From Streptomyces venezuelae (GTDB lineage: Bacteria; Actinomycetota; Actinomycetes; Streptomycetales; Streptomycetaceae): 64,000 nt of DNA. The notes under the pieces were generated by a model that did no database searches, was not told the DNA's origin, and saw only the letters and a list, made by a program, of their open reading frames with translations. Made by a program: the position numbers and the translations under genes. Position 1 is the stretch's first letter, and each line of letters begins with the position of its first letter. Shown one piece after another: positions 13,973 to 49,605 of the stretch. The stretch lies in contig NZ_CP029193.1 of the NCBI RefSeq assembly GCF_008642355.1, forward strand, positions 6,348,001-6,412,000, written 5' to 3'.

Positions 13973-13978
13973 CTGTCG

Positions 13979-15271: not shown

Positions 15272-15391
15272 TGCTGGTACCTGACCTCGGGGTTCGGGAA
15301 GGGACTGCGCAGCCGCACTCTACTGGGGACCCGGCGCCGCATCCCTATCGCCGGTAGCCGACCGCGCTGCGACGCCCTTGCGACTCGCTGG

Positions 15392-15410
15392 TTAGGTTAG
15401 GCTAAGCTAA
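15392..15410 (+). promoter_or_regulatory. Iron box (DmdR/IdeR operator)
   Basis: TTAGGTTAGGCTAAGCTAA at 15392-15410 is close to the actinobacterial iron-box consensus TTAGGTTAGGCTAACCTAA, with one internal mismatch (G for C). It ends seven bases before the esterase ATG. TAAGCT within it (15403-15408) could be the -10 element of a leaderless promoter, so iron-loaded DmdR would sit directly on the promoter. The gene is therefore expected to be induced in iron starvation. Confidence 0.9.
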
Positions 15411-26337: not shown

Positions 26338-27666
26338 CTAGGTCCCTTCAGGGAAAGGCGTGGCTGTCACCTCGGCCGTGAAGGGGAGGTGGGCGGGGCG
26401 GGCCGCCGCGACGACGGCCCGCAGGCGGTGCGTGTCCACGGATGCGGGATCGTGGACGCGCAGGGTGACGTGCAGGGCGGGGCGCGGGGTGCCGGGGAAG
26501 GCGCCCAGCGGACGTGCGGACCAGGCCGCGCCGCCGCTCTCGCTGATCTCCGGGCGTACGCCGAAGGCGAGCTCGACGGCGGCGGACAGGCCACGCCGGG
26601 TGCCGCGGACGCGGTGCAGGTCGACGGCGGAGGCGACGGCTTGGCGGCGGGTGGCCAGCGGCTCGGTGCCGTCGAGCTCCGTGCCGACCCAGTCCGTCAG
26701 CCAGTCGAGGAAGTCCGCGGGTGTCAGGGCCGGTGTGAAGTACGCCTCCAGGCTGTCCAGGACGGCGAAGACGGGCGCGAGGACGACGTCCAGGCCGGAG
26801 ACGAAACGCAGGATGAAGTCGTCGTCGGCGAAGACGGCGGGCAACTGGTCCCCGATGGGGTGCGCGGAGCCCAGCGCGGGCAGTGACCCACGCCTGGACG
26901 CGTGGCCGTCACCGCGGCTGTCCCCTCCGCCCCCGCCCCCGTCCCCGGGCCCGGACCGGTCGTCGCCGCCTCCGGCCCCGCCGGACGCCACCGGGGTGTG
27001 CCCCGCCTGGGAGACGGGGGCGCCCGTGACGCCGGACTTCACCCAGGAAGCGCGGATGCCACCCGAGGTGACGGAGGCGCCCGGAGCGGTCTCGGCCCCG
27101 TGCCCGGTACGCCCGTTCCCGCTCTCCGCGGACTGCTCGGCACGGCCGCCGCCCGCTTTCGCGGGGGTGCGCTTCTTGGCGGACGTGCGGGGTGTCTTGG
27201 GGGCGGATGCTGGTTTGTCGGTGGTTTTCGCGTCGGGGGTGGCATCCGGCTTCGGGTCCGGGGCGGCCCCGGGGGTATGGCTGGGGGCGGGGTCCGGCGT
27301 CGCCTGGGGGGTGTGATGGGGGGTGGCGTAGGGGTATGCGTCGGGGCCCGGGTCCGGGGTTGGCTCAGGGGTGTGGTCCCGGGTGGTGCTCCGGGTTGGC
27401 TCAGGGGTGTCGCCCGGGGTGGCGTACGGGTTTGGCTCGGAGGTGGGGGCCGGAGTTGTGGTGTACGGGTTCGGGGTGGAGGTGGGGTTCGGGAGCGTGG
27501 CGTACGGGTTCGGGGCGGGCGTGTGGTCCGGGCCGGCGTACGGGTTCGTCTCGGTGGTGTGCGGGACGGCGGTCGCCGGGCCGAAACCGGGTGTGGGGAC
27601 GGGCGCCGCTCCCGGCGCGCCCTCGGCCTCCGGGGCGGTGCTCGCCTCGTGCTCGTCGTTCGTCAT
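26338..27666 (-). CDS. CIS baseplate component, phage tail protein I family, with repeat-rich N-terminus
   Basis: From ATG 27666, which overlaps the stop of the preceding baseplate gene, the product has 442 residues. The C-terminal part (about 245-442) matches the phage tail protein I / TIGR02242 family: LPAVFADDDFILRFVSGLD, FLDWLTDWVGTELD, and VDLHRVRGTRRGL followed by an ELAFGVRPEI stretch. It helps build the baseplate wedge. The first 240 residues are disordered and rich in Pro, Thr and Ala, with repeated NPYA units in the first 95, then a basic KKRTPAKAGGG patch and a poly-Gly tract. This extension is much longer than usual for the family. It is coupled to the zinc-ribbon membrane protein downstream. 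Confidence 0.88.
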   Translation of the reverse strand: MTNDEHEASTAPEAEGAPGAAPVPTPGFGPATAVPHTTETNPYAGPDHTPAPNPYATLPNPTSTPNPYTTTPAPTSEPNPYATPGDTPEPTRSTTRDHTPEPTPDPGPDAYPYATPHHTPQATPDPAPSHTPGAAPDPKPDATPDAKTTDKPASAPKTPRTSAKKRTPAKAGGGRAEQSAESGNGRTGHGAETAPGASVTSGGIRASWVKSGVTGAPVSQAGHTPVASGGAGGGDDRSGPGDGGGGGGDSRGDGHASRRGSLPALGSAHPIGDQLPAVFADDDFILRFVSGLDVVLAPVFAVLDSLEAYFTPALTPADFLDWLTDWVGTELDGTEPLATRRQAVASAVDLHRVRGTRRGLSAAVELAFGVRPEISESGGAAWSARPLGAFPGTPRPALHVTLRVHDPASVDTHRLRAVVAAARPAHLPFTAEVTATPFPEGT

Positions 27667-29624
27667 CGTGCCTCGATGACGCGGACGCGGTGGTCGAAGG
27701 GGAACAGGAGCGCCGAGGGGGCCAGTTCGATGCGGTCCGTGGCGTCGCCCCTGCGGCCCGTCAGGGGGTCCGCGGGGTGGAGCAGGACCTCGTCGACGAG
27801 TTCCACGCCCGGTACCCGCTGGAGCGCGGCGAAGATCTCGCCCGCGCGCAGCGGTCGGCCGAACGGCCAGCCCTCGCGGTGCGCGCCGCCGGTCAGCGGG
27901 TCGAGGTAGGCGTAGAGGGCGTCGAGCGCCTCCGCGCGGACGCGCTCGGCGTGCGCCGCGCGGAAGGAGTGGAGCGTGGCGACCACGGTGACGCCCTGGT
28001 AGTAGGGCGGGCCGACCGAGAGGCGCGTGCCGAGGGGGCGGCGGTCGTCGAGGAACGAGGTGACGCGGGAGAGGAGTTCCTCGCCCGGCACCAGCTGCTC
28101 GAAGCGGAGCCGCCCGCCCCGGTCCGGCACCGCCTGCGGCACGACGAGGACGCGGACCGCGTTCTCCCCGGCCTCGGCGGAGTCCGCGGCCAGGCAGTGG
28201 ATGCGCGCCGTCTCGGGCGCGGCCCGCCGCGCCAGCTCCTCGTAGTCGCGCGCCGTCACGGCCCGCTCCTGCGCGCGCAGCGCGATCGGCGCGCGGACCT
28301 TCGCCTCCTCGACCGTCTCGCCGTCGACACCGCCGCGCGCCGCCTCGCGGTTCTCCACGCGGGCGACGTACGGGATGGAGCTGCGCAGGACCTGGATGGC
28401 GCCGCGCGCCACGTTGCCCGTGCGGCCGCCGCCCGTGCGGTAGCGGGTCGCGCGGATCGCCGCGCCCTTCTGGGGGACGGCGCCGAACTGCCGCAGGGAG
28501 CCGTCCGGTTCGCGGACCGCGGGGCCGAACGCGATCTCGCCGGTCGCCGCGTCCAGCGTGACGTGCGGGTCGTACGGTCCGGACGAGGCGAAGTCGTCGA
28601 CCACCTGCCACTCGGCCCAGCCCGACCCCTCGCCGTCGGAGACCTCCAGGACCAGCGGCGGCCGGTCGGCGACCACCGGGGCCTGGGCGAGGCGGACGCG
28701 CTGTCCGGGCACACCCGTGGAGTCGCCGAGGAGTTCGTCGCGTACGACGTCCGCGTGCGCGACACCGGTCGTGCCGCCGATGGTGAACGCGACGGCGGAC
28801 CGCACGGTCGGCGACGCGCTGTAGAACGGCTGGCCCTTCGCCGCCTCCGTGACCCGGCAGCGCACCCAGCCCGCGTCCTGCCGCCCGATGCGCGAGACGA
28901 TGTGCCCGGCCGGGATGTGCAGGACGACGTCGCCGGGCCGGTTGAGGCCACCGGTGGAGTCCTCGTCGACCTCGCACTCCGTCCAGCCGTCCGCGGTCCA
29001 CGCCTCCCACACCAGCGGCGGCTGCCGCGGGTCGACGCCCACGCCGTCCACCCGGCTGTCGAGCTGCAGCACCGCCGCACACCGCGGCACCGCCGCGCTG
29101 AGCCCGAAGAGCAGCGTGTCGCCGGGGCGCGGCGACTCCGCGAAGACCGCCACGTCACGGCCGCCGAAGATGTCCTGCCCGCAGTCCTGGGGCGTGCTGC
29201 CGTCCTCCTGGCGCAGCACGGCCGACAGCTCGCAGGGCACCACCGTCAGATCCGCCTCGGTGGCGAAGGCCACCGCTTCCTCGGTCTCGGTGCGGCTGGT
29301 CGCCACTTCCGTGCCCGCGGGCAGGACGACCGGCTCGGGCTGCGGCGCGGACAGCCAGAACGTGACGTCCGCGCGGGCCGCGGAGGGCGGGAAGAGGGTG
29401 ACGCCGAGCAGGTCGAGGAAGGCCAGGTGGTTCTTCTCCGGCACGCGGTTGAGCCGGTACACGATCTGGTCGGCCATGTGCGCGACGGCCTCGACGAGGG
29501 TGACTCCCGGGTCGGAGACGTTGTGATCGGTCCACTCCGGGCAGCGCTGCTGGATGTAGCGCTTGGCGTCGTCGACGAACTGCTGGAAGCGCCGGTCGTC
29601 GAGGTGGGGTGCGGGCAGGGCCAT
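27663..29624 (-). CDS. CIS baseplate J family protein (putative baseplate assembly protein)
   Basis: A 653-residue baseplate wedge protein of the gp47/J type (TIGR02243-like). The N-terminus, CPEWTDHNVSDPGVTLVEAV with MADQIVYRLNRVPEKNHLAF, is the characteristic opening of this group in actinobacterial and eCIS loci. Later blocks include VAGTE-like VLPAGTEVATSRTE and, in the C-terminal third, ALRAQERAVTARDYEELA. It sits between gp25 (six bases away) and tail protein I (ATGA overlap), the usual order of baseplate genes. It should form the wedges that link the hub to the sheath. Confidence 0.93.
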   Translation of the reverse strand: MALPAPHLDDRRFQQFVDDAKRYIQQRCPEWTDHNVSDPGVTLVEAVAHMADQIVYRLNRVPEKNHLAFLDLLGVTLFPPSAARADVTFWLSAPQPEPVVLPAGTEVATSRTETEEAVAFATEADLTVVPCELSAVLRQEDGSTPQDCGQDIFGGRDVAVFAESPRPGDTLLFGLSAAVPRCAAVLQLDSRVDGVGVDPRQPPLVWEAWTADGWTECEVDEDSTGGLNRPGDVVLHIPAGHIVSRIGRQDAGWVRCRVTEAAKGQPFYSASPTVRSAVAFTIGGTTGVAHADVVRDELLGDSTGVPGQRVRLAQAPVVADRPPLVLEVSDGEGSGWAEWQVVDDFASSGPYDPHVTLDAATGEIAFGPAVREPDGSLRQFGAVPQKGAAIRATRYRTGGGRTGNVARGAIQVLRSSIPYVARVENREAARGGVDGETVEEAKVRAPIALRAQERAVTARDYEELARRAAPETARIHCLAADSAEAGENAVRVLVVPQAVPDRGGRLRFEQLVPGEELLSRVTSFLDDRRPLGTRLSVGPPYYQGVTVVATLHSFRAAHAERVRAEALDALYAYLDPLTGGAHREGWPFGRPLRAGEIFAALQRVPGVELVDEVLLHPADPLTGRRGDATDRIELAPSALLFPFDHRVRVIEAR

Positions 29625-29630
29625 CGGACT

Positions 29631-30044
29631 TCAGACTCCGCTCTCTGATTCCGTGGACGGGATCACGTAGAAGGGAAAGACGAGAGAGCGCGGATTGTTG
29701 GTGCCGCGCACGGTGTAGCTCACGTCGATGAACAGGACGGACGGGTCGTCGGGCGCCGGGCTGACCTCGACGTCCAGGACGTCGATCCGCGGCTCCCAGC
29801 GGTCGAGCGAGGACCGCACCTCGTACCGGATCCGCCCCGCCGTCGCCTCGTTGACCGGCGCGAACACCATGTCGTGCACGGCGCAGCCGAACTCGGGCCG
29901 CATCGGGCGCTCGCCCGGCGCGGTGGCGAGCACGAGCCGGATCGACTCCTCGATCTCGCGCTCGCGCCGGGCCAGCGCGATGCCGCCCCCGGCGTTGATG
30001 CGCAGCGGAAACGTCCAGCCCGCACCGACGAACTGCTCACTCAT
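29631..30044 (-). CDS. CIS baseplate protein, gp25 (GPW) family
   Basis: A 137-residue gp25-like protein, the small lysozyme-like wedge component that starts sheath assembly. The core shows GGGIALARREREIEESIRLV, followed by TAPGERPMRPEFGCAVHDMV, the near-invariant gp25 block, and VFAPVNEATAGRI. Length is typical. It lies 32 bases after vgrG and six before the baseplate J gene. The C-terminus (PFYVIPSTESESGV) is slightly extended. Confidence 0.95.
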   Translation of the reverse strand: MSEQFVGAGWTFPLRINAGGGIALARREREIEESIRLVLATAPGERPMRPEFGCAVHDMVFAPVNEATAGRIRYEVRSSLDRWEPRIDVLDVEVSPAPDDPSVLFIDVSYTVRGTNNPRSLVFPFYVIPSTESESGV

Positions 30045-30076: not shown

Positions 30077-31996
30077 CTAGAAAGGAATGCCATTGCGCAG
30101 CACGGCGGGTGCGGTCAGGGTGACGGTCGCCGGTGACGTGATGGCCGCGGCGGCACCCGCGTTGACGGCGACCGCGCCCGCGGCGGTCACGGAGACCGCG
30201 CCGACCGCGTTGACGGCGACGGCACCCGCCGACTTGAGGCTGACGACGCCGGTCGCGTTGATGTCCGCCATGCCGCCCGCGTTGACGCCGAACTTGGCGC
30301 CCGCCTTGATGTCGACCGCGCCGCCCGCGCTCATCGTCAGCGAACCGCCCGCGGTCAGCGACAGGTTGCCGCCCGCCCTGATGCTGACGTTGCGGGTCCC
30401 CGAGATGGACACCGTGCCGTCGCTGCGGATGGTCACGCTGGTCCGCGCCTCGTCCATGTGGACGGTGAGGCGGCCGTTGCCGGTCTGCAGCCGGATGCCG
30501 CTCTTCATACGGGACTTGGCGTCCACGAGCTCCATGGTGTGGCCGCTGCGCGAGGAGACGGACCGCCAGTTGACCCGGCCGCTGGTCGGGTCGATCGGCT
30601 GCAGCCCATCCGTGTTGGGCGTCGGCTTGTCCCGCCCGTTGTACAACCCGGCCAGCACATAGGGGTGTTCGAGCGATCCCCGGTCGAAGGCGACAAGCAC
30701 CTCGTCACCGACCTCGGGCAGCATCAACCCGCCGCCCCGGACGCCGCCCAGCTGCGCGATACGGCACCAGTCGCTCTCGTACGTGTCCGAGAGCCACGGG
30801 AAACGCAGCTTGACCCGGTTCATCCGCAACGGGTCCTTCGCGTTGCTGACCAGCGCCATCGCGACACCCGGCATCGGCGGCGCGGCATCCGCGCCGCCCG
30901 AGGCGAGACCGTACAGGGAACGGAACTGGCGCCCCGAGACGGTCAGCCACGTCGTGAACGGCCGCCCGGACTCGAAGAGGTGCCGCACCCCGGTCGCCGT
31001 GTACTTCCCCTCGAAGGGGAACCCCGCCCCCTTCAGCGCCACGGGCCGCCCCGGCCGCAGGTCGGGGTTGCCGGTGACGGCGACCTCCACCTCGGCGAAC
31101 GACCCCGCCACGTCGTCCGCGAGCGACCGGGCGGCGTGTGTGACCTGCGCCTGTGTCGTGTACGGCCACCCCGTCTCCGTCAGCTCCGCCTTGCCGAAGG
31201 GCTGCGACAGCTGCGCGGGCGTGATGTCGGTGACGATGTCCTTGCTGCGGACCGCGGGGGACTGCGCGGACAGGGCGCGCTTGGCCCGCATGTCCCAGCC
31301 GCGCACCCCGGCCGTCGCGACCTGGCCCGCCGCGGTCACCGCGACACGGCTGTGCAGCGCGTTGTGCCCGAATTCGACGACGTACGGGCTCTGCGCGGCC
31401 GGTGTCGAGTCGGACGGCGCGCCGGACGCGGGCGCGAGCTTCGCGAAGCACAGCTTGCCGTCCTCGTCGAAGGACAGGTGCGTGTCGTTCTCCTGCGCGA
31501 GCCGGGACAGGAAGTCCCAGTCGGTGATGTTCGGCTGGGTCGCCAGTTCGTACACCGTCGGTGTCGACTCGATCTTCCCCAGCTGCACCTTGTTGGCGGC
31601 GGCGACGCGGCGCACGATGTCGGACGCCGTCATGTTCGGGAAGCCCTGCACGCGGCGGTTGCGGAGCAGCCGGTGCCCCGGGTCGTAGCCGCGCACGACG
31701 AGCTGCTTGCCGCCGCCGTCCGAGTCGACCTCCAGGGCGGTGACCTCACCGGTCAGCATCGGCTTGCCGCGCACACCGTCCGTGAACGGGCACAGCACGG
31801 CCTTGGCGCCCACCTTGATCTGCGGGAACTTCTCCAGGATGTCCCCGCCCTCGTCGACGAAGGTCAGCTGGAAGGCGGACGGCACGTTCACACTGGCGTC
31901 CACCCAGCCCTCCACGAGCAGCACGGCGAGCTTGTCGGGCAGGACGGATCCGCCGATCTCGGCGTGCAGGACGCTCGTGTACGTCTTCTCACTCAT
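30077..31996 (-). CDS. CIS hub and spike protein, VgrG/gp27-gp5 type
   Basis: A 639-residue central spike protein. Residues about 1-370 are the gp27-like hub (phage protein D), with LLRNRRVQGFPNMTASDIV and NITDWDFLSRLAQENDTHLS. The OB-fold gp5-like region follows, with RVKLRFPWLSDTYESDWCRI, the glycine-rich LPEVGDEVLVAFDRGS and HPYVLAGLYNGRDKP. The final 120 residues are short strand repeats rich in Ala, Gly and Val, such as GGNLSLTAGGSLTMSAGG, which form the triple-stranded beta-helix needle. ATG 31996 shares one base with the stop of the LysM gene. No separate PAAR tip gene is seen nearby. Confidence 0.94.
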   Translation of the reverse strand: MSEKTYTSVLHAEIGGSVLPDKLAVLLVEGWVDASVNVPSAFQLTFVDEGGDILEKFPQIKVGAKAVLCPFTDGVRGKPMLTGEVTALEVDSDGGGKQLVVRGYDPGHRLLRNRRVQGFPNMTASDIVRRVAAANKVQLGKIESTPTVYELATQPNITDWDFLSRLAQENDTHLSFDEDGKLCFAKLAPASGAPSDSTPAAQSPYVVEFGHNALHSRVAVTAAGQVATAGVRGWDMRAKRALSAQSPAVRSKDIVTDITPAQLSQPFGKAELTETGWPYTTQAQVTHAARSLADDVAGSFAEVEVAVTGNPDLRPGRPVALKGAGFPFEGKYTATGVRHLFESGRPFTTWLTVSGRQFRSLYGLASGGADAAPPMPGVAMALVSNAKDPLRMNRVKLRFPWLSDTYESDWCRIAQLGGVRGGGLMLPEVGDEVLVAFDRGSLEHPYVLAGLYNGRDKPTPNTDGLQPIDPTSGRVNWRSVSSRSGHTMELVDAKSRMKSGIRLQTGNGRLTVHMDEARTSVTIRSDGTVSISGTRNVSIRAGGNLSLTAGGSLTMSAGGAVDIKAGAKFGVNAGGMADINATGVVSLKSAGAVAVNAVGAVSVTAAGAVAVNAGAAAAITSPATVTLTAPAVLRNGIPF

Positions 31997-32754
31997 CAGG
32001 ACTCCACGTGCGCGGGGGTGGTGACGGGGCCGGGCCGGGCCTCGTCGGCGGCGGGCAGCAGCAGCTCGGTGCCGGGCCGCAGCCGCATCGGGTCGTCGAT
32101 GTCGTTGGCCTCGGCGATCAGCCGCCAGCGGGTGGCGTCCCCGTACTCCCGCCACGCCAGCGACGCCAGGGAGTCACCCGCGACCGTGCGGTGCACGCGG
32201 CGCGCGGAGAGCGCGCCGGACGTCGGGTTCTGCCCCTTGGTGGGCATCGACACCTCGGTCAGCGCGAGCGAGCACGTGGCACGGATGGGTTCACCGGTCG
32301 GGTTGAACAGGGTGTACGTGGCGCTGACATTGGTCACGTACGCCACGAACTGCACGGTGTTGAACGACCCCCACGAGAACCGCACCCACGGCGGGGAGGG
32401 CCGCTTGGAGCTGACGCTCTGCGGCGTCACCTCGCAGCACGACAGGAGCAGCTCGACCTGCTTCTGCACCTTGCCCGAGTTGGGCGTCCCGGAGGAGTCG
32501 AGAAACACCTCCAGCTGGAGGGTGGCGGGGGCGGCACCGGTGAACTTGGGCGGCGCGCCGCGCGTATAGGCCACCGCACGCTGCGTACGCCACTCCGCCG
32601 ACCGCGCCAACTGCAGCTGCGTCGGATTGAACTGGAACTCCGCCTCTCCGATCCGCCCGCCCATCGACCCGCCGAGGTCGGTGGGCGGCTGGTGGATGGC
32701 GAGCGCGGCGCGCACGAGGCTGGCGCCGGCCTTTCCGCCGGTCGGCGCGGCCAT
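31996..32754 (-). CDS. CIS LysM-domain baseplate protein (gp53-like)
   Basis: A 252-residue protein from ATG 32754, which has GGGAGG nine bases upstream; a GTG at 32763 would add three residues and overlap the tube gene. The N-terminal part has the eCIS block FQFNPTQLQLARSAEW and KFTGAAPATLQLEVFLDSSG. The C-terminus is a LysM domain, VHRTVAGDSLASLAWREYGD with RWRLIAEANDIDDPM. In contractile systems this protein locks the tube to the baseplate hub. It sits between the second tube gene and vgrG, the standard place. Confidence 0.93.
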   Translation of the reverse strand: MAAPTGGKAGASLVRAALAIHQPPTDLGGSMGGRIGEAEFQFNPTQLQLARSAEWRTQRAVAYTRGAPPKFTGAAPATLQLEVFLDSSGTPNSGKVQKQVELLLSCCEVTPQSVSSKRPSPPWVRFSWGSFNTVQFVAYVTNVSATYTLFNPTGEPIRATCSLALTEVSMPTKGQNPTSGALSARRVHRTVAGDSLASLAWREYGDATRWRLIAEANDIDDPMRLRPGTELLLPAADEARPGPVTTPAHVES

Positions 32755-32755
32755 C

Positions 32756-33193
32756 TCAGGCACCTCCCGCGTCGGTGAACCCGTGGTGCGCGATCTCCAG
32801 CGTCTCCGTCGCCACGGCGGGACTGTCCGGACTCAGGCTCGGCCCCTGCCAGCGCACGGGCAGCACCTCGACGAGCCCCCACTGCGCGACGATCGAACCG
32901 TCCGCGCGCAGCGCCGCGATCTGCGCGGTCGGCCGCGAGATCCCCGTCGCGATGGACGAGATCCACGCCGCCACGCGCGACGTGTCGGCGGTCAGCGGCC
33001 GGGTCAGCCGGATCGTGGAGAAGGTCACGCGGGTCGGCAACTGCCAGACGAACCCGTTGTTGCCGCCCTCCTGGCGCTGCTCCACCTCCACCTCGGAGGA
33101 GAGCCCGTCGCACCCGTTGAACAGGCCGAGGTCCTGGCCGTCGATGGTGAGCTTGAAGAAGACGGTGGAGCCGGGGTCCTTGGGCGAGGGCAT
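32756..33193 (-). CDS. CIS inner tube protein 2 (phage tail region protein, TIGR02241-like)
   Basis: A 145-residue tube-fold protein: VFFKLTIDGQDLGLFNGCDG at the start, EVEQRQEGGNNGFVWQLPTR in the middle, and a C-terminal VRWQGPSLSPDSPAVATETLEIAHHG. In eCIS loci this second, divergent tube protein forms the baseplate-proximal ring that joins the tube to the hub. It lies 57 bases after the large disordered protein and one base before the LysM gene. Length is typical. Confidence 0.93.
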   Translation of the reverse strand: MPSPKDPGSTVFFKLTIDGQDLGLFNGCDGLSSEVEVEQRQEGGNNGFVWQLPTRVTFSTIRLTRPLTADTSRVAAWISSIATGISRPTAQIAALRADGSIVAQWGLVEVLPVRWQGPSLSPDSPAVATETLEIAHHGFTDAGGA

Positions 33194-33250: not shown

Positions 33251-36200
33251 CTAGCGGCCGTGGTCGCGGAGTCGGCCGACCCGTTCGCGGTCGCTGCGCA
33301 ACTCCGCGCGGAGCAGCCGCGACAGCGGAGCGAGGAGCCGCCGCGCGAGGTCGTCGAGGTCGGCGGGCGTGGCGGATTCGGCGGCGGGACCGGATGCGGC
33401 GTGCTCGGACGGGGCGGGGGCCGGCGGCTTGGTCTCCGCGGGGGCGGGGCGGGGGGCGGCCGGGGCGGGTTGCAGAGGGATGGACACGTGCTGCCGCGGC
33501 GCTTGGGGCTGTGACTGGGGCTGTGGTTCGGGCTGGGTGGGTGCGGTGCGTCGTTGGACGGGGGGCGCGGGGGTGGGCGCGGTACGCACCTGGGGCCTGG
33601 CGGGGCCGGGCGTGTGACGGGGCGCGGGGGCGCCGGGCTTGGCGAGGGGTACGACGACGGGGGCGACGCCGCTGCTGGACGCGTGCGGGTGCGTTGCGGC
33701 GCGGGGTGCGGGGGTTGCCGACTTTTGCAGGGGCACGGGGGCGGGCGCGGGTGCTGCCTGAGGGCGCGGTCCCGTCACCGGGGCGGGTGACGTGCTTGTG
33801 GTGTGCGGCGTCAGGCCCCGGGCGGGGGAGAGGGGGTACTGCTCGACGGCGGGCCGGTGACTGCCGGGTGCCACACGGCGGTTGATCGGGACGACGGGGA
33901 GCGGGTGGCGTCGCGGCTGATGCTGCTTCGGGGCGGGCGAGGGTGAGGGCGCGGGTGCGGGTTCGCCGGTCGGCGTAGGGGCAGGCGTCGTCGGTGAGCC
34001 GCCTGCCGACGACTGCTGGACCGGGGCCACGGGTGTGGGGGCAGCTGTGGGAGCCGGTGCGGGTGCCGTGGCGGCCGACCGCTGCACGGGTGGCACGGGG
34101 GCGCCGATGGCGGTGCGGCGGGGGCGGGACTGGTTGCTCGCCGCGGAGGCCACGGGCGGTGAGGGTACGTCGCCGGCAGGCCGTTGCACGGGAGGCGCGG
34201 GAGGTACGGGGGCGCCGGTGCTGGTGTGGTGCGGTTGGTTCTGGGGGTCGGTCGTGGGGGCGGGAGCGGGTACGGCGTTCGCCGACCGCTGGACGGGGGG
34301 CAGGGGTGCGCCGATCGCCGTGCGGCGCGGGCGCGTCCGGCCGGTCGCCGTGGGGCCCGCGTTCGTCGGCCTGTCGTCGGCCGGGGCGGGGCGGGGGTGG
34401 CCGTTGCCCGGTGCCATGGGCGTGGGTGCCGCGCTCGTCGACTTCTGGGAGGGCGCGACCGGTCCGTTGACCGGACTGCGGTTGCTCGCCCTGGGAGTGG
34501 ACGTGGGTGTGGGGTCGGGCGCGGGGCCGTTGGTCGCCGTCCGCTGGGCGGCGGGCGCGTGCGGCGCGCTCTGCGGCGCGGGCGCGTCGGCCGTGGATTT
34601 GTGAGGGGGGCTCACAGGTGCCGGGGCGGGCGTCGACGTGGGTGCGGGGCCGCTGTTCGCCGCGCGCTGGACGGCAGCCTGGCGCGGGAGGTTCTGCGCT
34701 GCCGGGCTGCTCGTCGTGGGGGCGGACGCGGGGGCGTCGTCGGCCGTCCGTGGGACGGGGGCCTGGTGCGAGGCGTTCTGCCGGGCGGGCGTCTGCGTGG
34801 GGGTGCCCGCCATGGGCGTACTGGTCGCCGTTCGCTGAGCGGGGGGCCGGACTGGCGTGTTCTGCGGTGCGGGCGTCTGCGTCGGGGTGCCGGTCGTGGG
34901 AGCGGTGGTCGTCGTCCGCTGGGCCGGGGCCTGGCGCGTGTTCCGGGGTGTGGGCGTTTCCGCGGGGGTGCTCGCCGCGGGTGTGTTGGTCGCCGTCGGT
35001 TGGGCGGGGGCTTGGTGCTGGGTGCTCTGTGGGGCAGGCGCTTGCGTGGGAGCGGCTGCGGAGGGAGCGGTGGTCGTCCTCCGCTGGACCGGGGCCGCCT
35101 GGGACGTGCTCTGGGGTACGGGCGTCTGCGCGGGGGTGCCGGCCGAAGGCGTGTTGGGCGCCGTCCGCTGGACGGGGGTCTGGCGAGGGGAGCTCTGGGG
35201 TGCGGGTGTCTGCGCGGGGGAACTGGTCGTCGTTCGCTGGGCCGGGGCCTGGCGCGTGTTCCGGGGTGTGGGCGTTTCCGCGGGTGTGTTGGTCGCCGTC
35301 GGTTGGGCGGGGGCTTGGTGCTGGGTGCTCTGCGGGGCAGCCGCTTGCGTGGGAGCGGCTGCCGAGGGAGCGGTGGTCGTCGTCCGCTGGACCGGGGCCT
35401 GGGGCGGGGTGCTCTGTGGGGTGGGTGTCGGCGCGGGGGAGCCTGCCGTGGGGGCGGCGGGCGCCGGCCGACGGGCGGGGGTCTCGTGCGGGGCGCTCCG
35501 CGACGCGGACGTGTCCGTTGGGGTCTGGTGCGGGCGGCTGTTCGCGGCCGGGGTACTCGCCGTGGGCGCGGAGGCGTTGGCCGCCGTCCGCTGGACGGGT
35601 GCCGGGCGCGGGGTGTTCCGCGGTGCGGACGGCTCCGCGAGAGCGCCTGCTGTGGGGACGGTGGTCGCCGTCCGCTGGACGGGCTTCTCGCGAGGCGCGG
35701 TGCTCTGCGGTGCGGTGCTCTGCGGTGCGGGCGCGTCCGACGTGCCCTGACGCGAGCCGCTCTTCGGCGCCTTGCCACTCGCCGCGGACGCAGGCGCGTC
35801 TGTCGCGGGCTCATGCGTACGGCCCTTGGGCGCCGGGGAGCTCGCCGCAGGGGCGGGCGCGGGAGTGTCCGTCGCCGTCCGCTGGACCGGTGCCTGGCGC
35901 GGCGTGCTCTGCGGTGCGGGCGCGCTCGCCGAGGGGGCAGGGGCAGGCGCAGGGGCAGGACTGGGCGTCGACCGCGGGGCGGGCGGCTGCGGCACGGCGC
36001 TCTGCGGCGCAGGAGCCGCGGCGGCACCGGGCGGAGTACCCGTGCCCGCCTGCGCGCGCTGGACCCTGCGGATGCGAGGCCGTCGCTGTACGGGCTCAAC
36101 GGGGGAATTCGCCCGTACAGCGACGGTGTCCGGGGCCGCGGACGCGGCAGGAGCCCCCGGGCCGGTAGGGGGTACCGGCCCGGGGACATCGGTGGGCGGA

Positions 36201-36889
36201 GCGTCGGGCGCGACGACGCCCCGCGCGGCGGGGTTCGGCGTCGTACGCGCCGCCCCGACAGGGAACAGCTGGCGCTGCGGCGTCACGCCCGGCGCCGCCG
36301 ACACGAGCGGGGAACGCCGGGTCGTACGCGACGGCCGCGCCACAGCAGGGCTGCTCGCCGACGCGGGCACCGACCGCGCGGCCGTGGACCGCTGCACCGG
36401 CGCCGCGGCGGACGGGGACGTGGACGTGGACCCGATGCCACCCGCCTCGGGAGGCGTGGTCTGCCCCTCCGTGCCGGCCGCCGCCTCGCCGGCCCCTCGT
36501 ACCGGCAGCTGGAGCGAGGGCAGGTCGAGGTCGCCCGGTCGGCCCGCCACCGGCGTCAGGACGCCGTGCAGCAGGCCTCCGGGCGCGGAGGCACGTACCG
36601 CATGCCCCAATTCCCCTCCGAAGGACGGGTTCTGGTGCGTGGCGAGCATCGCGCCGAACCCCTGCTCGGCGACCGTCCGCGGCGCCGCGAGCACACGCTG
36701 GACCGGCGGCACGGCGGCCCACCCGCCACCGCCACCGCCGCCACCGACGACGTCGGCACCGGATGCGGCACCAGAGCCGGACTCCGCGGAGGCAACTTCT
36801 GGAGCCGCCGGACCGGCCGCACCGGATGCCTCCGCACCCGGCGCCCCCGTCTCGCCCCGCGACCCCCGCCGCCACTTGAACAAGCCCAT
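33251..36889 (-). CDS. Giant disordered PVQR-repeat protein of the CIS operon
   Basis: A 1212-residue, Pro/Ala/Thr/Ser-rich protein from ATG 36889, with GAGG just upstream. The ends are conserved-looking. Residues about 55-130 (PPVQRVLAAPRTVAEQGFGA, THQNPSFGGELGHAVRASAP) seem partly folded, and the last 45 (DLDDLARRLLAPLSRLLRAE and RSDRERVGRLRDHGR) form a charged amphipathic helix. Between them lie about 1000 residues of disordered sequence with some thirteen PVQR motifs and many AQRT, VPRT or AQPT variants, as in APVQRTATDTPAPAP. A recent internal duplication is visible (34917-35399). It occupies the gap between the hub-chaperone genes and the second tube gene, where a length-control or packaging protein might sit. 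It resembles no tape-measure protein I know. Confidence 0.8.
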   Translation of the reverse strand: MGLFKWRRGSRGETGAPGAEASGAAGPAAPEVASAESGSGAASGADVVGGGGGGGGWAAVPPVQRVLAAPRTVAEQGFGAMLATHQNPSFGGELGHAVRASAPGGLLHGVLTPVAGRPGDLDLPSLQLPVRGAGEAAAGTEGQTTPPEAGGIGSTSTSPSAAAPVQRSTAARSVPASASSPAVARPSRTTRRSPLVSAAPGVTPQRQLFPVGAARTTPNPAARGVVAPDAPPTDVPGPVPPTGPGAPAASAAPDTVAVRANSPVEPVQRRPRIRRVQRAQAGTGTPPGAAAAPAPQSAVPQPPAPRSTPSPAPAPAPAPSASAPAPQSTPRQAPVQRTATDTPAPAPAASSPAPKGRTHEPATDAPASAASGKAPKSGSRQGTSDAPAPQSTAPQSTAPREKPVQRTATTVPTAGALAEPSAPRNTPRPAPVQRTAANASAPTASTPAANSRPHQTPTDTSASRSAPHETPARRPAPAAPTAGSPAPTPTPQSTPPQAPVQRTTTTAPSAAAPTQAAAPQSTQHQAPAQPTATNTPAETPTPRNTRQAPAQRTTTSSPAQTPAPQSSPRQTPVQRTAPNTPSAGTPAQTPVPQSTSQAAPVQRRTTTAPSAAAPTQAPAPQSTQHQAPAQPTATNTPAASTPAETPTPRNTRQAPAQRTTTTAPTTGTPTQTPAPQNTPVRPPAQRTATSTPMAGTPTQTPARQNASHQAPVPRTADDAPASAPTTSSPAAQNLPRQAAVQRAANSGPAPTSTPAPAPVSPPHKSTADAPAPQSAPHAPAAQRTATNGPAPDPTPTSTPRASNRSPVNGPVAPSQKSTSAAPTPMAPGNGHPRPAPADDRPTNAGPTATGRTRPRRTAIGAPLPPVQRSANAVPAPAPTTDPQNQPHHTSTGAPVPPAPPVQRPAGDVPSPPVASAASNQSRPRRTAIGAPVPPVQRSAATAPAPAPTAAPTPVAPVQQSSAGGSPTTPAPTPTGEPAPAPSPSPAPKQHQPRRHPLPVVPINRRVAPGSHRPAVEQYPLSPARGLTPHTTSTSPAPVTGPRPQAAPAPAPVPLQKSATPAPRAATHPHASSSGVAPVVVPLAKPGAPAPRHTPGPARPQVRTAPTPAPPVQRRTAPTQPEPQPQSQPQAPRQHVSIPLQPAPAAPRPAPAETKPPAPAPSEHAASGPAAESATPADLDDLARRLLAPLSRLLRAELRSDRERVGRLRDHGR
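34917..35399. repeat. Recent internal duplication in the PVQR-repeat gene
   Basis: About 180 bp from 34917 to 35096 recur almost unchanged at 35235-35399. The copies differ by a few substitutions and a 15-bp in-frame insertion in the first copy (after GTTTCCGCGGG), which adds the residues AASTP or equivalent. The unit length with spacer is about 310 bp, roughly 100 codons. The reading frame is kept, so the protein has grown by a recent tandem duplication. Confidence 0.85.
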
Positions 36890-36902
36890 CACTTACCTCG
36901 AC

Positions 36903-37070
36903 TCACCGACCGGTCGCCTTCGCCTCCGCCTGCTCCACCAAGGTGGCGGTCCGCGCCACGTACGCGCGCCGGTCCGCGTGTTCGAGGTCGAGGATGTCGT
37001 CCATGCCCCAGTGGAAGTGGTAGGCGAGGTACGCGACTTCCTCCTCGATGCGGTCGGCCGCGTACGTCAC
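36903..37070 (-). CDS. Small CIS protein, DUF6760-like (55 aa)
   Basis: A 55-residue reading frame from GTG 37070 to TGA at 36905-36903. GTG overlaps the stop of the hub-chaperone gene (GTGA), and GGGGGA lies just upstream. The sequence begins MTYAADRIEEEVAYLAYHFH, continues with WGMDDILDLEHADRR, and ends with VEQAEAKATGR. The HFHWxxDDILDLEHxDR core is the typical small helical protein found after the gp26-like gene in eCIS operons (DUF6760 to my recollection). This pattern matches the position and size of phage GpE-type assembly helpers next to the tape-measure gene. The gene is easily missed because of its size. Confidence 0.88.
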   Translation of the reverse strand: MTYAADRIEEEVAYLAYHFHWGMDDILDLEHADRRAYVARTATLVEQAEAKATGR

Positions 37071-37513
37071 GATTCCCCCAGGCGGCTCCCGGCCAGCTCC
37101 ACCTCGAAGGACTCCGAGCAGTGCGGGCAGGCCACCGCCGCACGGGTGTGGCCCTCCGCGTTGATCTGCCGGTAGAAGTCCTGGAGGAAGGCCAGGTCGG
37201 AGGCGAACATGTTCTCCACCGTGCCGTCGTGGACGGAGCCGAGCGTGCCGAGCCGGGTGATGACCCGGCCCAGCAGCACCACGGACAGGTAGGCGGGGTT
37301 CTCGCGCACGCGGACGTCCCGCAGCGGCACCAGTTCGTCACGTGCCGTCGCGAGCCGCATCGCGCCGTTGCGGTGCACGGTGCCGGACTCGTCCACGAAG
37401 CCGCGCGGCAGCTCGAACTCGAACTCCGTACGCAGCGGTTCGCGGACGCCCGTCACCGCGCCGGGCACCGTGCCCGCGCCCGCAGCCGTCCCCGCCGGGC
37501 CCTCGCGCCGCAT
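37067..37513 (-). CDS. CIS baseplate hub assembly chaperone (T4 gp26/gp51-like)
   Basis: A 148-residue protein from ATG 37513, overlapping the tube stop (TAATG). It shows the eCIS block FEFELPRGFVDESGTVHRNG and AMRLATARDELVPLRDVRVR, then YLSVVLLGRVITRLG. The final CPHCSESFEVEL carries a C-x2-C knuckle that could bind zinc. Proteins of this kind match the T4-type baseplate hub assembly chaperone family. It is coupled to the DUF6760-like gene downstream. The role is inferred from family and position. Confidence 0.88.
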   Translation of the reverse strand: MRREGPAGTAAGAGTVPGAVTGVREPLRTEFEFELPRGFVDESGTVHRNGAMRLATARDELVPLRDVRVRENPAYLSVVLLGRVITRLGTLGSVHDGTVENMFASDLAFLQDFYRQINAEGHTRAAVACPHCSESFEVELAGSRLGES

Positions 37514-37956
37514 TATTCGATGACCAGCTCTTCGAAGACGATGGTGACCTGCTCGGTCAGCGCGGCGGCGTCGCCCGCCTTGACCCCGCTGGTCTCCACC
37601 TTGCTGCACCAGGCGTTGCGCAGGTTGTAACGCTTCACCGGGTTGTTCTGGTAGTCCATCATCATGATCGTCGCGTTCTTGCGCGCCGAACCCATGTCGC
37701 CCGCGATGGACTTGTTGATCCACTCGCTGAAGACGGGGCTCTGCGTCATGCCGCGCGTGACCGTGCACTCGCCGGCCTTCTTCACGCCGGGCATCTTCTT
37801 CACGACGGGCTTTCCGTCCGCAGACACCTGCTGGTACTCGATGACGTCCTGCTCCATGGACAGGCCGCTGACCTCCTGGAGGTACTCGACCATGACGCCG
37901 TCGATCTGGAGGCCGAAATTGTGTGTGGTGAGGGCGTCACCGGGCTGCAGAGACAA
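37513..37956 (-). CDS. CIS inner tube protein (T4 gp19-like)
   Basis: A 147-residue tube protein (Hcp/gp19 fold) that stacks in rings to form the inner tube. It has HNFGLQIDGVMVEYLQEVSG at the start, the block VIEYQQVSADGKPVVKKMPG, TVTRGMTQSPVFSEW and a terminal EQVTIVFEELVIE strand. The start is TTG 37956, nine bases after GGAG; no ATG or GTG is available nearby, so TTG is probably real. It lies 53 bases after the sheath gene. Confidence 0.95.
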   Translation of the reverse strand: MSLQPGDALTTHNFGLQIDGVMVEYLQEVSGLSMEQDVIEYQQVSADGKPVVKKMPGVKKAGECTVTRGMTQSPVFSEWINKSIAGDMGSARKNATIMMMDYQNNPVKRYNLRNAWCSKVETSGVKAGDAAALTEQVTIVFEELVIE

Positions 37957-38009: not shown

Positions 38010-39608
38010 CTACTCCTCCAGCTCGCCGCCCCCGCCGGAGAACTGCGCGAGCCGGAACACCACGAACTCGGCGGGCTTGACCGGCGCGATGCCGATCTCG
38101 CAGACGACCCGGCCGAGGTCGACCGACTCCGGCGGGTTGGTCTCCTCGTCGCACTTGACGTAGAAGGCGTCCTCGGGGCGCGCGCCGAACAGGGCGCCCG
38201 AGCGCCACTCGTTGACCAGGAACGCCGAGACGTTGCGGCGGATGCGCGCCCACAGGGCGTGGTCGTTCGGCTCGAACACCACCCACTGCGTGCCGATGAG
38301 GATCGACTCTTCGAGGTAGTTGAAGTAGCGGCGCACGTTCAGGTAGCGCCACGCCGGGTCGGACGCCATCGTGCGCGCGCCCCACACGCGGATGCCGCGG
38401 CCCGGGAAGGCGCGGATGCAGTTCACGCCGATCGGGTTGAGCAGGTCCTGCTCGCCGCGGGTGATCTGCAGGTCCAGGTCGACCGCGCCGCGCACGATCT
38501 CGTTGGCCGGCGCCTTGTGCACGCCGCGCTCGGCGTCGTTGCGCGCCCAGATGCCCGCCATGTGGCCGGACGGCGGCACGACCACCGACTGCCCCGACGC
38601 CGGGTCGAAGGACTTGATCCAGGGGTAGTAGAGAGCGGCGTAGCGCGAGTCGTAGCCGGCCAGCTCCTGGCGCCACTGCCGGACCTGGCGGGCGTTCAGC
38701 GACGGCGGCGGGTCGATGATGGCCATCCGGTCGCCCATCAGCTCGCAGTGCGAGATGAGGCCGAGCTGGACCGCCTTGACCTGCTCCTCGTCGATGATGC
38801 CCTGCTGGTAGGCGGCCATCAGGTCGGGCACCGCGACCATGTTGATCTCGTCGAGGGCCTCCAGGCCGCCGAAGCCGGTGCGGTCCGAGGAGTCGCCGAT
38901 GAACTGGGCGGTCTCGATGCGCGACACCTGGCCGTTCGCGTCGGGCACGGCGGGGGCGGCGGGCGCCGGGGGCGCCAGGGTCACGGTCTGCGCGTCGGGC
39001 TTGGCCAGCTGGCCGCCCGCCGTGGAGGCCTCCTCCAGGGCGATCGTCTTGGAGCGCTGCCTGACCTGCGTGACCACGTAGTTGCGGGCGGTCTTCTTCG
39101 CGCTGACGTCGAAGTTCTCGACGACCTTGTCGCCGTCCTTGACGATCAGCTTGAAGCGGTCGGCGGCACCCTCGCCCTCGCCGTCCTGCACCTCGACGGT
39201 CAGCGCGCCGCCGTCCGTGGTGCCCGCGGTGATGGCCGACACGGTGAACGCGCCGAGCGCCACGGGCTCGCCCGCGGTGAGCTCCTTGGGGGCCTGCGTC
39301 CGCGTCGGCTGCGCGGGGGCCTGCTGCTGCGACTCGGCCGCGTCGGTGCCGCCGACGCGCACGATGTACGCGGCGCTGCCGCCGTTGTTGAAGAACCCGT
39401 ACACGGAGTGCGCCAGGTAGTACCCGTCCGTGAACTCGCCGAACGCGGCCACGTACTGCGACCAGTTGGTCACCAGCGTCGGCTCGTTGAGCGGTCCCCG
39501 CGGCGCAAGGCCGACGAAGGCCGCGACGGAGGTGCCGACGCCTTCGATGGGGCGCGAACCGCTGGCGACTTCCTCGATGTAGACGCCGGGGGACAGGTAG
39601 TTGGGCAT
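38010..39608 (-). CDS. CIS contractile sheath protein
   Basis: A 532-residue sheath protein and the first gene of the CIS operon. ATG 39608 has GGAG nine bases upstream, so it is preferred over the TTG at 39623. The N-terminus, MPNYLSPGVYIEEVASGSRP with IEGVGTSVAAFVGLAPRGP, is the signature of tail-sheath proteins; the first strand inserts into the neighbouring subunit. The C-terminal domain (about residues 320-532) has GIRVWGARTMASDPAWRYLN, ESILIGTQWVVFEPND and a final GIAPVKPAEFVVFRLAQ. The middle (about 100-230) is a surface-exposed insert of variable sequence. A 565-bp region with regulatory repeats lies upstream. Confidence 0.96.
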   Translation of the reverse strand: MPNYLSPGVYIEEVASGSRPIEGVGTSVAAFVGLAPRGPLNEPTLVTNWSQYVAAFGEFTDGYYLAHSVYGFFNNGGSAAYIVRVGGTDAAESQQQAPAQPTRTQAPKELTAGEPVALGAFTVSAITAGTTDGGALTVEVQDGEGEGAADRFKLIVKDGDKVVENFDVSAKKTARNYVVTQVRQRSKTIALEEASTAGGQLAKPDAQTVTLAPPAPAAPAVPDANGQVSRIETAQFIGDSSDRTGFGGLEALDEINMVAVPDLMAAYQQGIIDEEQVKAVQLGLISHCELMGDRMAIIDPPPSLNARQVRQWRQELAGYDSRYAALYYPWIKSFDPASGQSVVVPPSGHMAGIWARNDAERGVHKAPANEIVRGAVDLDLQITRGEQDLLNPIGVNCIRAFPGRGIRVWGARTMASDPAWRYLNVRRYFNYLEESILIGTQWVVFEPNDHALWARIRRNVSAFLVNEWRSGALFGARPEDAFYVKCDEETNPPESVDLGRVVCEIGIAPVKPAEFVVFRLAQFSGGGGELEE

Positions 39609-40173
39609 GCTGCTGTGCTCCAAGGCTCGAGGGGTGGCGAGGGTGTGGCGGGCGGACCGGCGATGCGCCGGTGCGGCTGCCGCTCGTTCCCCCTGTGTGC
39701 CGGCCGTATGCCGGTCCCCGCTGGTTCGTACCTTGTCGACGATGTCTCACGCGCGGGCCGGTGCGTAGAGACGGAAGGACGTCAGTGAGGGCAGATGCCG
39801 CTGCCCGTTCAGCCGCCGGGCGGACGCCTCCGACCTGTGCGTTCGTCGCGGTGGCCGGGCGTACCGGGGAGGCCCGGGGTGCGTTGCCCGTCCGGTCACC
39901 GGTGTGGAGGCGGAGGGCAAGCCGGGGGCGGGGCAGCGGGTGGGATGAAGGGACGCCGTCGTGCGGGCGCGGCCGAATGTGAATGGTCGGTGGCGCATAT
40001 GCCACGCCCGGGGTGCCCGGCACGTCAACACCTGGTCAACATGGGGGCGCAAGTGACCCGCACGAGTCGGGGGACCGCTGGGGCTGACGTAACGTTTGGT
40101 GCGTACGGCCATCCGTGGCGCGTACGAACGGGCACTTCGCGGTGCGTCACAGGGCAAGGAGTGCGGGCTGACA
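39609..40173. promoter_or_regulatory. Divergent regulatory region between the CIS operon and the AfsR-type regulator
   Basis: This 565-bp region holds no convincing gene. It must contain the minus-strand promoter of the twelve-gene CIS operon and the plus-strand promoter of the regulator. Visible structures are the heptad direct repeat at 40024-40041, and a short inverted repeat GTGGC-GCATAT-GCCAC at 39990-40005. AAGGAG at 40156-40161 may be the regulator's distant ribosome binding site. No confident -10/-35 pair was found for the sheath gene. Confidence 0.5.
40024..40041 (+). promoter_or_regulatory. Heptad direct repeat, candidate SARP operator
   Basis: GTCAACA occurs at 40024-40030 and again at 40035-40041, separated by CCTG, so the repeat period is exactly 11 bp. 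SARP-family activators bind heptameric direct repeats spaced by four bases in this way, usually near the -35 position. The regulator encoded 130 bp downstream is a SARP, which makes autoregulation likely, but no binding has been shown here. Confidence 0.55.
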
Positions 40174-48964: not shown

Positions 48965-49605
48965 GTGTCCGCCCCCGCCCCGTCGCCGTCGCGCCGTTTC
49001 CGTGTCATCCGGGGCCGGGAGTCGCCCGGCTCCCCGTCGAGGCCGCGGACCGCCACGACCGCGCCCTCGGTGACCGGCGGTGCCACGTCGTACGTGGGCG
49101 AGACCGGGAACGGCACGGTGATCACGACATCGAGGGACGGCTTGAGCTCACCGCCGAGCGCCGACCAGATGTCGGCGATGGACCGTGCCTCGGGCGGCGG
49201 TACGGCGACGGACAGCGGCAGCGTGGCGCCGAGCGCGGCGAGCGCGTCCGGCAGCCGGTCCGGGGGCAGCAGTTCGTGGGCGAGGAGCGTGCCGAGGGCC
49301 GCGGAGAGCAGCCGGTGCTCGTCCTCGGGGCGGTTGGTCCAGGCGGTGAGCAGGTAGGAGAGCCGGAACCAGCGGGGCGGCTGCCGCCTGCGCAGCACGA
49401 CGCCGTCCGGCCCCCGCTCGGCGTAGGCGCCGCGTTCGCGGCGGGCGACGTCCTCGCGGATGTCGTACAGGTAGGAGTTGAGGGTGGGTGCGTTGCGCCG
49501 CGCCGCCCAGTCGCGGGTCGGCGCCTCGAAGACGACCTCGCCGGTCCCCTCCGGAAGCGCCTCCCGCAACAGCGCGCGCAGCGCCTCGTCGACTTCGTGG
49601 ATCAC
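48961..49605 (-). CDS. CIS DUF4255 protein (tail terminator, Pvc16-like)
   Basis: A 214-residue protein whose first 180 residues match the Pvc16/DUF4255 family: MIHEVDEALRALLREALPEG, LNSYLYDIREDVARRERG and RRRQPPRWFRLSYLLTAWTN followed by EDEHRLLSAALGTLLAHELL. In Photorhabdus virulence cassettes this is the cap that ends the tube and sheath. The last 35 residues are charged and disordered. The position just before the AAA ATPase is conserved in eCIS loci. It lies 61 bases after the LuxR-type regulator. Confidence 0.92.
   Translation of the reverse strand: MIHEVDEALRALLREALPEGTGEVVFEAPTRDWAARRNAPTLNSYLYDIREDVARRERGAYAERGPDGVVLRRRQPPRWFRLSYLLTAWTNRPEDEHRLLSAALGTLLAHELLPPDRLPDALAALGATLPLSVAVPPPEARSIADIWSALGGELKPSLDVVITVPFPVSPTYDVAPPVTEGAVVAVRGLDGEPGDSRPRMTRKRRDGDGAGADT

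Follow-up and report, generated by a model that had tools for sequence, protein, structure and literature searches.

The window, that is, the whole 64,000-nucleotide stretch of Streptomyces venezuelae DNA analysed here, carries genes of a contractile injection system (CIS) on its minus strand. Among them lies one open frame (33251–36892) with in-frame GTG (36892) and ATG (36889) starts and a TAG stop. The features are as follows:

26338..29082, minus strand: baseplate protein with a Tail_P2_I domain (PF09684)
29631..30044, minus strand: gp25-like baseplate protein (PF04965)
30077..32155, minus strand: VgrG-like hub/spike (PF04717, PF05954)
31996..32763, minus strand: LysM tube-initiator/hub protein (PF19266, PF01476)
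32756..33193, minus strand: second tube protein (tube initiator), gp19-like (PF06841)
33251..36889, minus strand: PVQR-repeat disordered protein, proposed tape measure (GTG 36892 is an alternative start)
33254..33391, minus strand: its conserved C-terminal module, an amphipathic helix of 46 aa that ends RERxG... and is a putative baseplate anchor (alignment, helical moment, phylum search)
36494..36721, minus strand: its conserved N-terminal stretch, 76 aa, W..VPPVQR...F...L.T.Q.PS....LGH.V...AP.GL (alignment)
36903..37070, minus strand: DUF6760 gene (PF20546, E=2.1e-7), with a 4-base overlap with the upstream gene
37067..37513, minus strand: tail-assembly-chaperone-like gene with a CPHC zinc-ribbon-like end (phrog_508, weak at E=0.0035; conservation)
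37513..37956, minus strand: tube protein (PF06841; S. coelicolor CIS tube in PDB)
38010..39623, minus strand: sheath (PF04984, PF17482)
46889..48964, minus strand: AAA ATPase (PF00004)
48961..49605, minus strand: cap, or tail terminator (PF14065, Pvc16_N)

As the first-pass annotation had described, the frame has 1,212 codons from the ATG, lies between the chaperone-like/DUF6760 genes and the second tube gene, and encodes 13 PVQR motifs, against a mean of 0.08 and a maximum of 2 in 1,000 composition shuffles; the looser [VI]QR occurs 15 times. Its middle is 66% Pro, Ala, Ser and Thr and only 4% order-promoting residues. Searches of Pfam, NCBIfam and PHROGs matched the protein to no family, including no known tape measure; Pfam and NCBIfam gave no C-terminal toxin or enzyme domain, and Pfam gave no DUF4157 (PF13699). 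At the DNA level, the PVQR pattern is not enriched across the genome, with 397 matches vs 450 for the reversed control, and another frame of the window with several xQR (13232–15400) was set aside as a probable wrong frame.

The gene order, namely sheath, tube, chaperone-like gene, DUF6760, ruler candidate, tube initiator, LysM, hub and gp25, is shared by relatives in Streptomyces, other Actinomycetota, Deinococcus plasmids and one Nostoc plasmid, in which the candidate may follow the tube initiator. Among 81 strong Streptomyces tube loci, 70 encode an N-terminal match to the window protein; a further four have the protein as judged by its C-terminus, four run off the contig, and three are two-sheath loci that lack the chaperone-like/DUF6760 pair. 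The gene is thus not absent from most sister loci, which the first-pass annotation had named as an outcome that would count against its reading. In phages, the tape-measure gene follows the tube and tail-assembly chaperone genes and precedes the hub genes, and the window gene sits in just such a place, as far as the weak chaperone match allows the comparison. The Nostoc counterpart of the chaperone-like gene is annotated as a phage tail assembly protein, while AlphaFold2 gave the window's own chaperone-like product, with a start codon of our choosing, a pLDDT of 46.7.

To compare the homologues, 134 giant candidates (57 + 77) were collected, of which 25 run off a contig end and 14 are complete without RERxG near the end, leaving 95. 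Both ends and the [VI]QR motif are conserved in them, and the middle is variable, basic and disordered, with a net positive charge in 88 of the 95. The C-terminal helix has a mean helical moment of 1.49 vs 0.65 for shuffled sequences, and exceeds its own shuffle mean in all 95. Thus, of the two ordered ends suggested earlier, the C-terminal amphipathic helix stands; the N-terminal stretch shows sequence conservation, yet was predicted without secondary structure (AlphaFold2 pLDDT 55.6). A PDB profile search with the C-terminal module returned designed helical repeats or unrelated proteins, and no single stretch passes alone in its best matches.

The same combination is familiar from P2 T, Mu 42 and Afp14: a slot behind the tube gene and chaperone pair, the greatest gene length in the operon, and ends that are conserved around a variable middle, with the Afp14 gene itself placed elsewhere in its operon. 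The window protein resembles these phage tape measures and Afp14 in slot, ends and middle, but has no detectable sequence match to them, and it is disordered and Pro/Ala-rich where they are coiled coil. That Afp14 regulates Afp length is stated in the title of a paper.

We propose that the window protein acts as tape measure, or length ruler, in contractile injection systems of the Streptomyces type (subtype IId), a reading towards which we lean on balance. What is new here is the assignment itself, since a tape measure has been reported missing from Streptomyces systems: three papers describing such particles say that a tape-measure gene is lacking, even though S. coelicolor particles are reported to be identical in length. 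Among the literature matches listed, no title dealt with disordered or proline-rich tape measures of contractile systems, nor did any on PVQR/VQR motifs or repeats concern injection systems. We infer a ruler function, a location in the lumen, an orientation and a partner for the motif as follows. The chaperone-like/DUF6760 pair would hold the new chain soluble, and the C-terminal amphipathic helix would dock on the base of the spike/tube-initiator complex where it faces the tube. From there the chain, basic and rich in Pro and Ala, could extend along an acidic tube lumen at ~1.7–2.0 Å per residue, with rings of tube and sheath assembling around it; CIS tube lumens are described as negative in a passage of PMC8894135. 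Once the chain is exhausted at its conserved N-terminus, the cap would end growth, and the VQR motifs may serve as docking points to the tube wall, the tube initiator or DUF4157 proteins.

Particle lengths agree with this proposal in part. The 86 long-class proteins vary little in length (CV 9%), and S. coelicolor particles are reported to be identical in length at 268 nm. With 268 nm set against ~1,330 aa, a proxy length that does not come from the imaged strain, nine Deinococcus relatives of 1,506–1,973 aa (seven named matches plus two plasmid ORFs) predict particles of 304–398 nm, which agrees with the 365±39 nm reported for D. aquatilis, but in different strains. Eight further Deinococcus-type matches (1,122–1,764 aa) were left out of this set and would predict 226–356 nm. 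Searches for the ruler proteins of D. aquatilis itself, R. castenholzii and C. chliarophilus found none; the calibration predicts 1,617–2,004 aa for D. aquatilis CCM 7524, 997–1,156 aa for R. castenholzii DSM 13941 and 1,111–1,250 aa for C. chliarophilus DSM 9957. A point against the proposal is the spread of the candidate from 1,280 to 1,357 aa among the nearest kin of S. coelicolor, whose tubes are almost the same. The 119-nm Anabaena particle paired with a 524-aa Nostoc protein was dropped as a calibration point, because the tube of the Nostoc plasmid system matches another PDB tube better and the system is of another lineage. The earlier idea of a length ruler gains comparative support from slot, conserved ends with a variable middle, narrow lengths and IId particle lengths, and stays a proposal; its value of ~0.17–0.20 nm per residue is a numerical prediction that makes the length question testable. 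The companion idea of a lumen-filling cargo is disfavoured, because in a passage of PMC10066040 S. coelicolor particles lacking sco4256-4258 have lumens that look ~85% empty and are otherwise normal, and that mutant should still carry an intact ruler gene. The empty-looking lumens count against the ruler proposal too, as do the protein's absence from the atomic model, a particle proteomics passage that does not name it, and the missing sequence match to known tape measures.

The first-pass annotation had also pointed to PVQR-like motifs in DUF4157 proteins, and the counts bear this out: [VIL]QR occurs 80 times in 30 DUF4157 ORFs of <1,000 aa (9.7 expected), the opposite of its depletion in 12 Tme-class proteins (2 vs 11.5 expected). 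In small cargo-linked proteins the motif is found in the disordered linkers that flank DUF4157 on either side. Strict periodicity was rejected, as the spacing is broad (median 63.5 aa); it is nevertheless more even than random (CV 0.52 vs 0.87, lower in 85 of 90 proteins), and spacings of <20 aa number 28 of 1,103 vs 283 expected. A rank correlation was restricted to the 10 of 20 genomes that encode both a ruler and a DUF4157 protein of <300 aa, a subset picked after the counts were seen. We tentatively suggest that [VI]QR is a common IId docking code, placed about every 64 residues on the ruler and in DUF4157 linkers. With this code in common, ruler and cargo may compete for or share one lumen receptor (tube wall or tube initiator), and ruler, loader and fused effector might be variations on one polypeptide. 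If true, the shared motif would be a handle on cargo loading or processing in these systems.

The motif could also mean that the protein is a cargo adaptor with length set otherwise: a flexible scaffold within the tube or next to it, on which VQR gathers DUF4157 proteins and toxins. The motif shared with small DUF4157 proteins would fit, as would the fusion of DUF4157 into the slot protein, seen in 7 of the 20 other genomes searched and in all 15 Deinococcus-type matches, and a passage of PMC13277306 that reports binding of S. lividans Sle2 (DUF4157) to both the tube initiator and the effector Sle1. We nonetheless regard an adaptor without a ruler role as unlikely, as it leaves the narrow length range and the slot unexplained, and the slot protein of one genome (G413) has the motifs but no DUF4157 match.

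Less likely again is that VQR before Ala or Ser is where the DUF4157 metallopeptidase cuts; it would trim its own linkers and also sever the ruler, letting the tube empty. HExxH, noted as Zn-binding in a passage of PMC8213781, is kept in 43 of 43 DUF4157 ORFs, Ala or Ser is over-represented directly after the Arg, and the motif sits in the disordered linkers around DUF4157. However, Tme keeps HExxH without VQR, repeated sites in a C-terminal tail have no obvious purpose, the published passages covered here report no DUF4157 proteolysis, and Cgo1 toxicity is described in a published passage as independent of the motif. The least probable reading, an assembly factor absent from the finished particle (for example, a scaffold in the cytoplasm on which baseplate or tube is initiated), would suit a counterpart unnamed in the passage on particle proteomics and absent from the published atomic model, and lumens described as empty in the effector mutant, but a disordered chain would escape modelling, proteomics may overlook its long, Arg-limited, Pro-rich peptides, and the narrow length range is again left unexplained.

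As a candidate tape measure, the window protein can be set beside several known proteins. YscP-type rulers of type III secretion needles set length as an extended chain at ~1.9 Å per residue; this likeness is one of principle, the machine and the protein being unrelated to those of the window. Tme of S. davawensis, called tape-measure-related in a passage of PMC11126660, is likewise large, mostly disordered (~70%) and encoded between CIS tube and baseplate genes, but differs in its coiled coils, transmembrane helices and VQR depletion, and the window protein has none of its N-terminal DUF4157, C-terminal nuclease and 2,000+ aa. Tme-class proteins (2,080–2,389 aa) fall off the calibration, with ~200 nm reported for a Gln2006 stop mutant, and this misfit counts against the ruler proposal. 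Sle1 of S. lividans is described in a passage of PMC13277306 as a tape-measure-like CIS cargo, an effector with a coiled coil and a helical domain. Sle2-type small DUF4157 proteins have VQR in common with the window protein, but the Sle1/Sle2 genes lie upstream of the sheath and are different genes. The plug gene (Alg6/Cis6/Afp6) lies between the tube initiator and LysM genes, as the ruler candidate may in Nostoc, but its product is small; according to a passage of PMC8894135, the C-terminal helix of the plug occupies the cavity of the spike that faces the tube and is needed for assembly. No solved plug chain was among the PDB matches of the ruler C-terminus up to E=10. The sole paper found for SCO4249 or SLIV_17140 mentions SCO4249 in a passage on phosphate regulation.

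The PVQR-repeat protein (here the ruler, after its proposed role) is real and conserved, an unnamed component of the Streptomyces-type (IId) injection systems, and is most likely their tape measure, a function inferred from gene order and protein length. In the source genome, a single contig of 8.0 Mb, an ORF with an in-frame ATG at 36889 gives the 1,212 codons described in the first-pass annotation, and the roughly thirteen PVQR motifs claimed there were counted as 13, against a mean of 0.08 and a maximum of 2 in 1,000 shuffles. The minus-strand CIS operon runs in the order cap, AAA ATPase, sheath, tube, chaperone-like gene, DUF6760, ruler, tube initiator, LysM, hub, gp25 and Tail_P2_I gene, and includes:

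48961-49605, minus strand: cap, a member of the CIS operon
37067-37513, minus strand: chaperone-like gene
36903-37070, minus strand: DUF6760 gene
33251-36892, minus strand: ruler ORF

The chaperone-like and DUF6760 genes overlap by 4 bases (37067-37070), resembling the overlapping chaperone pairs of phages. Counting from sheath SCO4253 to CisA SCO4242, published tags and gene order suggest SCO4249 as the S. coelicolor number for the ruler.

Among 150 Streptomyces genomes, 64 contain matches to the ruler's N-terminal stretch (76 residues), at 70 places in all. Across the 60 loci fetched from these matches the marker order is constant as far as contigs extend, apparent swaps being over-long ORF starts. 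Counting the window as well, 57 of 61 loci carry an ORF containing three or more [VILMFA]QR behind the tube gene; L289-L291 have the ruler masked by marker ORFs, and L090 is at a contig end. At E<=1.2e-32 the tube search yielded 81 places (our own count), with the N-terminal stretch matched at 70 and the ruler found by its C-terminus at four more (L275, L278-L280), the opposite of a gene missing from most sister loci, which the first-pass annotation had named as grounds for dropping its reading. Four others run off the contig (L276, L277, L284, L285), and three (L281-L283) have two sheath genes and lack the chaperone-like/DUF6760 pair. Among three weaker tube loci, the ruler is present in L287 and absent from L286, which has a chaperone-like match only, and L288. 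When named genomes were scanned with the S. coelicolor tube, an ORF bearing three or more motifs, sometimes only a fragment, was downstream of the tube in 77 of the best 80 of 219 loci.

DUF6760 occurs in 24 of 346 phylum genomes, 19 of them non-Streptomyces, and loci were fetched for 18 of these 19 and for one Streptomyces. These loci hold the same gene set where contigs permit, the tube initiator preceding the ruler in some. The protein in the ruler's slot has 3-12 [VIL]QR in L222-L230 (L222 is cut by its contig), 1-3 in L235, L236 and L239, and none in L232, whose locus holds an N run, while the slot of L231 and L234 holds only ~230-242 aa with no motif or one. Of 20 genomes searched, seven (G179, G464, G342, G258, G472, G433, G226) have an above-cut-off match to PF13699 (DUF4157, the eCIS core domain) within the slot protein. 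Deinococcus plasmids encode rulers of 1,973 aa (PF13699 at E=2e-14) and 1,506 aa (both measured from the longest ORF start) whose C-terminus matches, and a Nostoc plasmid encodes a 524-aa version whose C-terminus resembles those of other relatives. No family in Pfam, NCBIfam or PHROGs names the ruler, and its relatives are recorded as hypothetical or as DUF4157/eCIS core proteins. At the Deinococcus loci (L292 17087-23008, L293 16607-21127), the listed gene covers just the 3' portion of the long ruler ORF, where DUF4157 lies. The 1,381-aa ruler ORF of S. clavuligerus plasmid pF1D18A (L295 13097-17242) is absent from the PLSDB gene table, known to be incomplete, which lists in its place an ORF on the reverse strand and a fragment of the 3' end.

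Among 95 complete proteins from 134 candidates, [VILMFA]QR occurs 1,348 times versus 89 after shuffling. In the comparison of homologues proposed earlier, the N-terminal stretch and a C-terminal module are alignable phylum-wide, and the middle region contains VQR in 95 of 95 proteins, 72-fold above composition. This middle carries a net positive charge in 88 of 95. Motifs are spaced broadly (median 63.5 aa) but more evenly than at random: of 1,103 spacings, 28 are below 20 aa versus 283 expected. When 296 genomes of the phylum were searched with a profile of the C-terminal module, 37 gave a match at E<=0.01; ORFs of 595-1,333 aa contain the 17 strongest places (E<=1.5e-11), and the weak matches look mostly like chance. 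The AlphaFold2 model of the N-terminal stretch had no confident fold.

Phages P2 and Mu have their tape-measure gene in the corresponding slot, after tube and chaperone pair and ahead of the hub genes. The match of the chaperone-like gene to a PHROG is weak (E=0.0035), and its Nostoc counterpart is recorded as 'phage tail assembly protein'. Rulers come in two length classes: a long one of 86 proteins (954-1,433 aa; CV 9%, a narrowness partly set by the 900-aa cut of this class) and a short one of nine (487-727 aa). Among 1,500 sampled long-class pairs, the 496 with <1% common 6-mers in their middles differ in length by a median of 9.8%, and the 955 with 1-5% by 9.4%. Length differences do not grow with sequence divergence, and we infer that length itself is under selection.

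Passages of PMC10066040, PMC12237407 and PMC10286715 state that a tape-measure gene is absent from Streptomyces systems, while S. coelicolor particles are described, in the portions of the literature used here, as 268 nm long, built of 60 tube layers and all the same length, and in part of an earlier paper as ~230 nm. Tubes 97-100% identical to that of S. coelicolor occur at seven loci, and the five complete rulers among these (1,280-1,357 aa), used as proxies, give 0.20 nm/aa for a length of 268 nm or 1.73 Angstrom per residue for 230 nm. Nine Deinococcus rulers of 1,506-1,973 aa (seven matches of one search plus the two plasmid ORFs, eight other matches being mostly shorter, 1,122-1,764 aa) predict 304-398 nm; D. 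aquatilis particles measure 365+/-39 nm in the relevant section of PMC12998442, its own ruler not being among the Deinococcus matches. Searches for the rulers of R. castenholzii (particles of 217 nm) and C. chliarophilus (238 nm) found neither. The comparison with particle length suggested by the first-pass annotation is encouraging for Deinococcus but rests on these proxies. Tme of S. davawensis does not fit, its Gln2006 stop mutant (~200 nm in the excerpt of PMC11126660) lying off the 0.20 nm/aa line. Also against a tape measure, the particle proteomics passage of PMC10020575 does not name the ruler, and according to part of PMC10066040, S. coelicolor without sco4256-4258 makes normal particles with lumens ~85% empty in look, which disfavours a cargo filling the lumen as well. 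The visible density is therefore not the ruler, but a thin ruler chain could still be there.

The recurrence of PVQR-like motifs in DUF4157 proteins that the first-pass annotation raised holds for small ones, with 80 [VIL]QR versus 9.7 expected in 30 ORFs below 1,000 aa (among them pieces of longer proteins, and some truncated where the fetched stretch ends), and breaks down for 12 Tme-class proteins of 2,080-2,389 aa (2 versus 11.5); one 1,278-aa ORF has 2 versus 0.8. The typical small protein reads LQR..GN..xQR, DUF4157, VQR, and VQR with an acidic tail. By eye, all 64 genomes with the N-terminal stretch are among the 92 DUF4157-positive ones, compared with 28 of 86 others. In 10 outgroup genomes, picked after the counts were seen, ruler motif density correlates with the number of motifs that the small DUF4157 protein carries (rho 0.79, p=0.007, uncorrected for kinship). 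The L287 ruler has one VQR and its genome, G097, no DUF4157 match; G413 has motifs and lacks a DUF4157 match. The main alternative is cleavage of VQR by the DUF4157 domain, whose HExxH is kept in 43 of 43 ORFs. In our view a docking motif fits best, because VQR recurs along the ruler and in the acidic tails.

The only PF13699 match of the S. venezuelae genome (G000:C1:2209450-2209665; L001, L214) lies ~4.2 Mb from the CIS operon, in a 415-aa ORF with HExxH and three [VIL]QR. In L202-L213, of a second CIS lineage, VQR-poor Tme-class proteins are encoded between tube and LysM/hub genes. A small DUF4157 protein upstream of the sheath in L224 (1470-2261) has three exact tandem copies of VQREAAPEEEEPVAGQW followed by its last VQR.

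In Algoriphagus, part of PMC8894135 describes a small plug, Alg6, whose C-terminal helix sits in the tube-facing spike cavity and is required for assembly. The Nostoc ruler gene lies between the tube initiator and LysM genes, a slot like that of Anabaena All3322 as judged by gene numbers in PDB matches. We suggest that the C-terminal helix of the ruler may take over the plug's job, as a proposal only, since the ruler C-terminus matched no plug chain in the PDB.

Window genes 43857-45479 and 45476-46861 (both plus strand), which end in PG_binding_1 and RicinB_lectin_2 and have similar weak Ig-like matches at the N-terminus, resemble the effectors Sco4256-4258 as described in the available literature excerpts. 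Between them and the sheath is a 908-aa NB-ARC and TPR protein (41025-43751, plus strand), perhaps a regulator, and a terpene synthase gene (PF19086; 22969-24201, plus strand) adjoins the operon.
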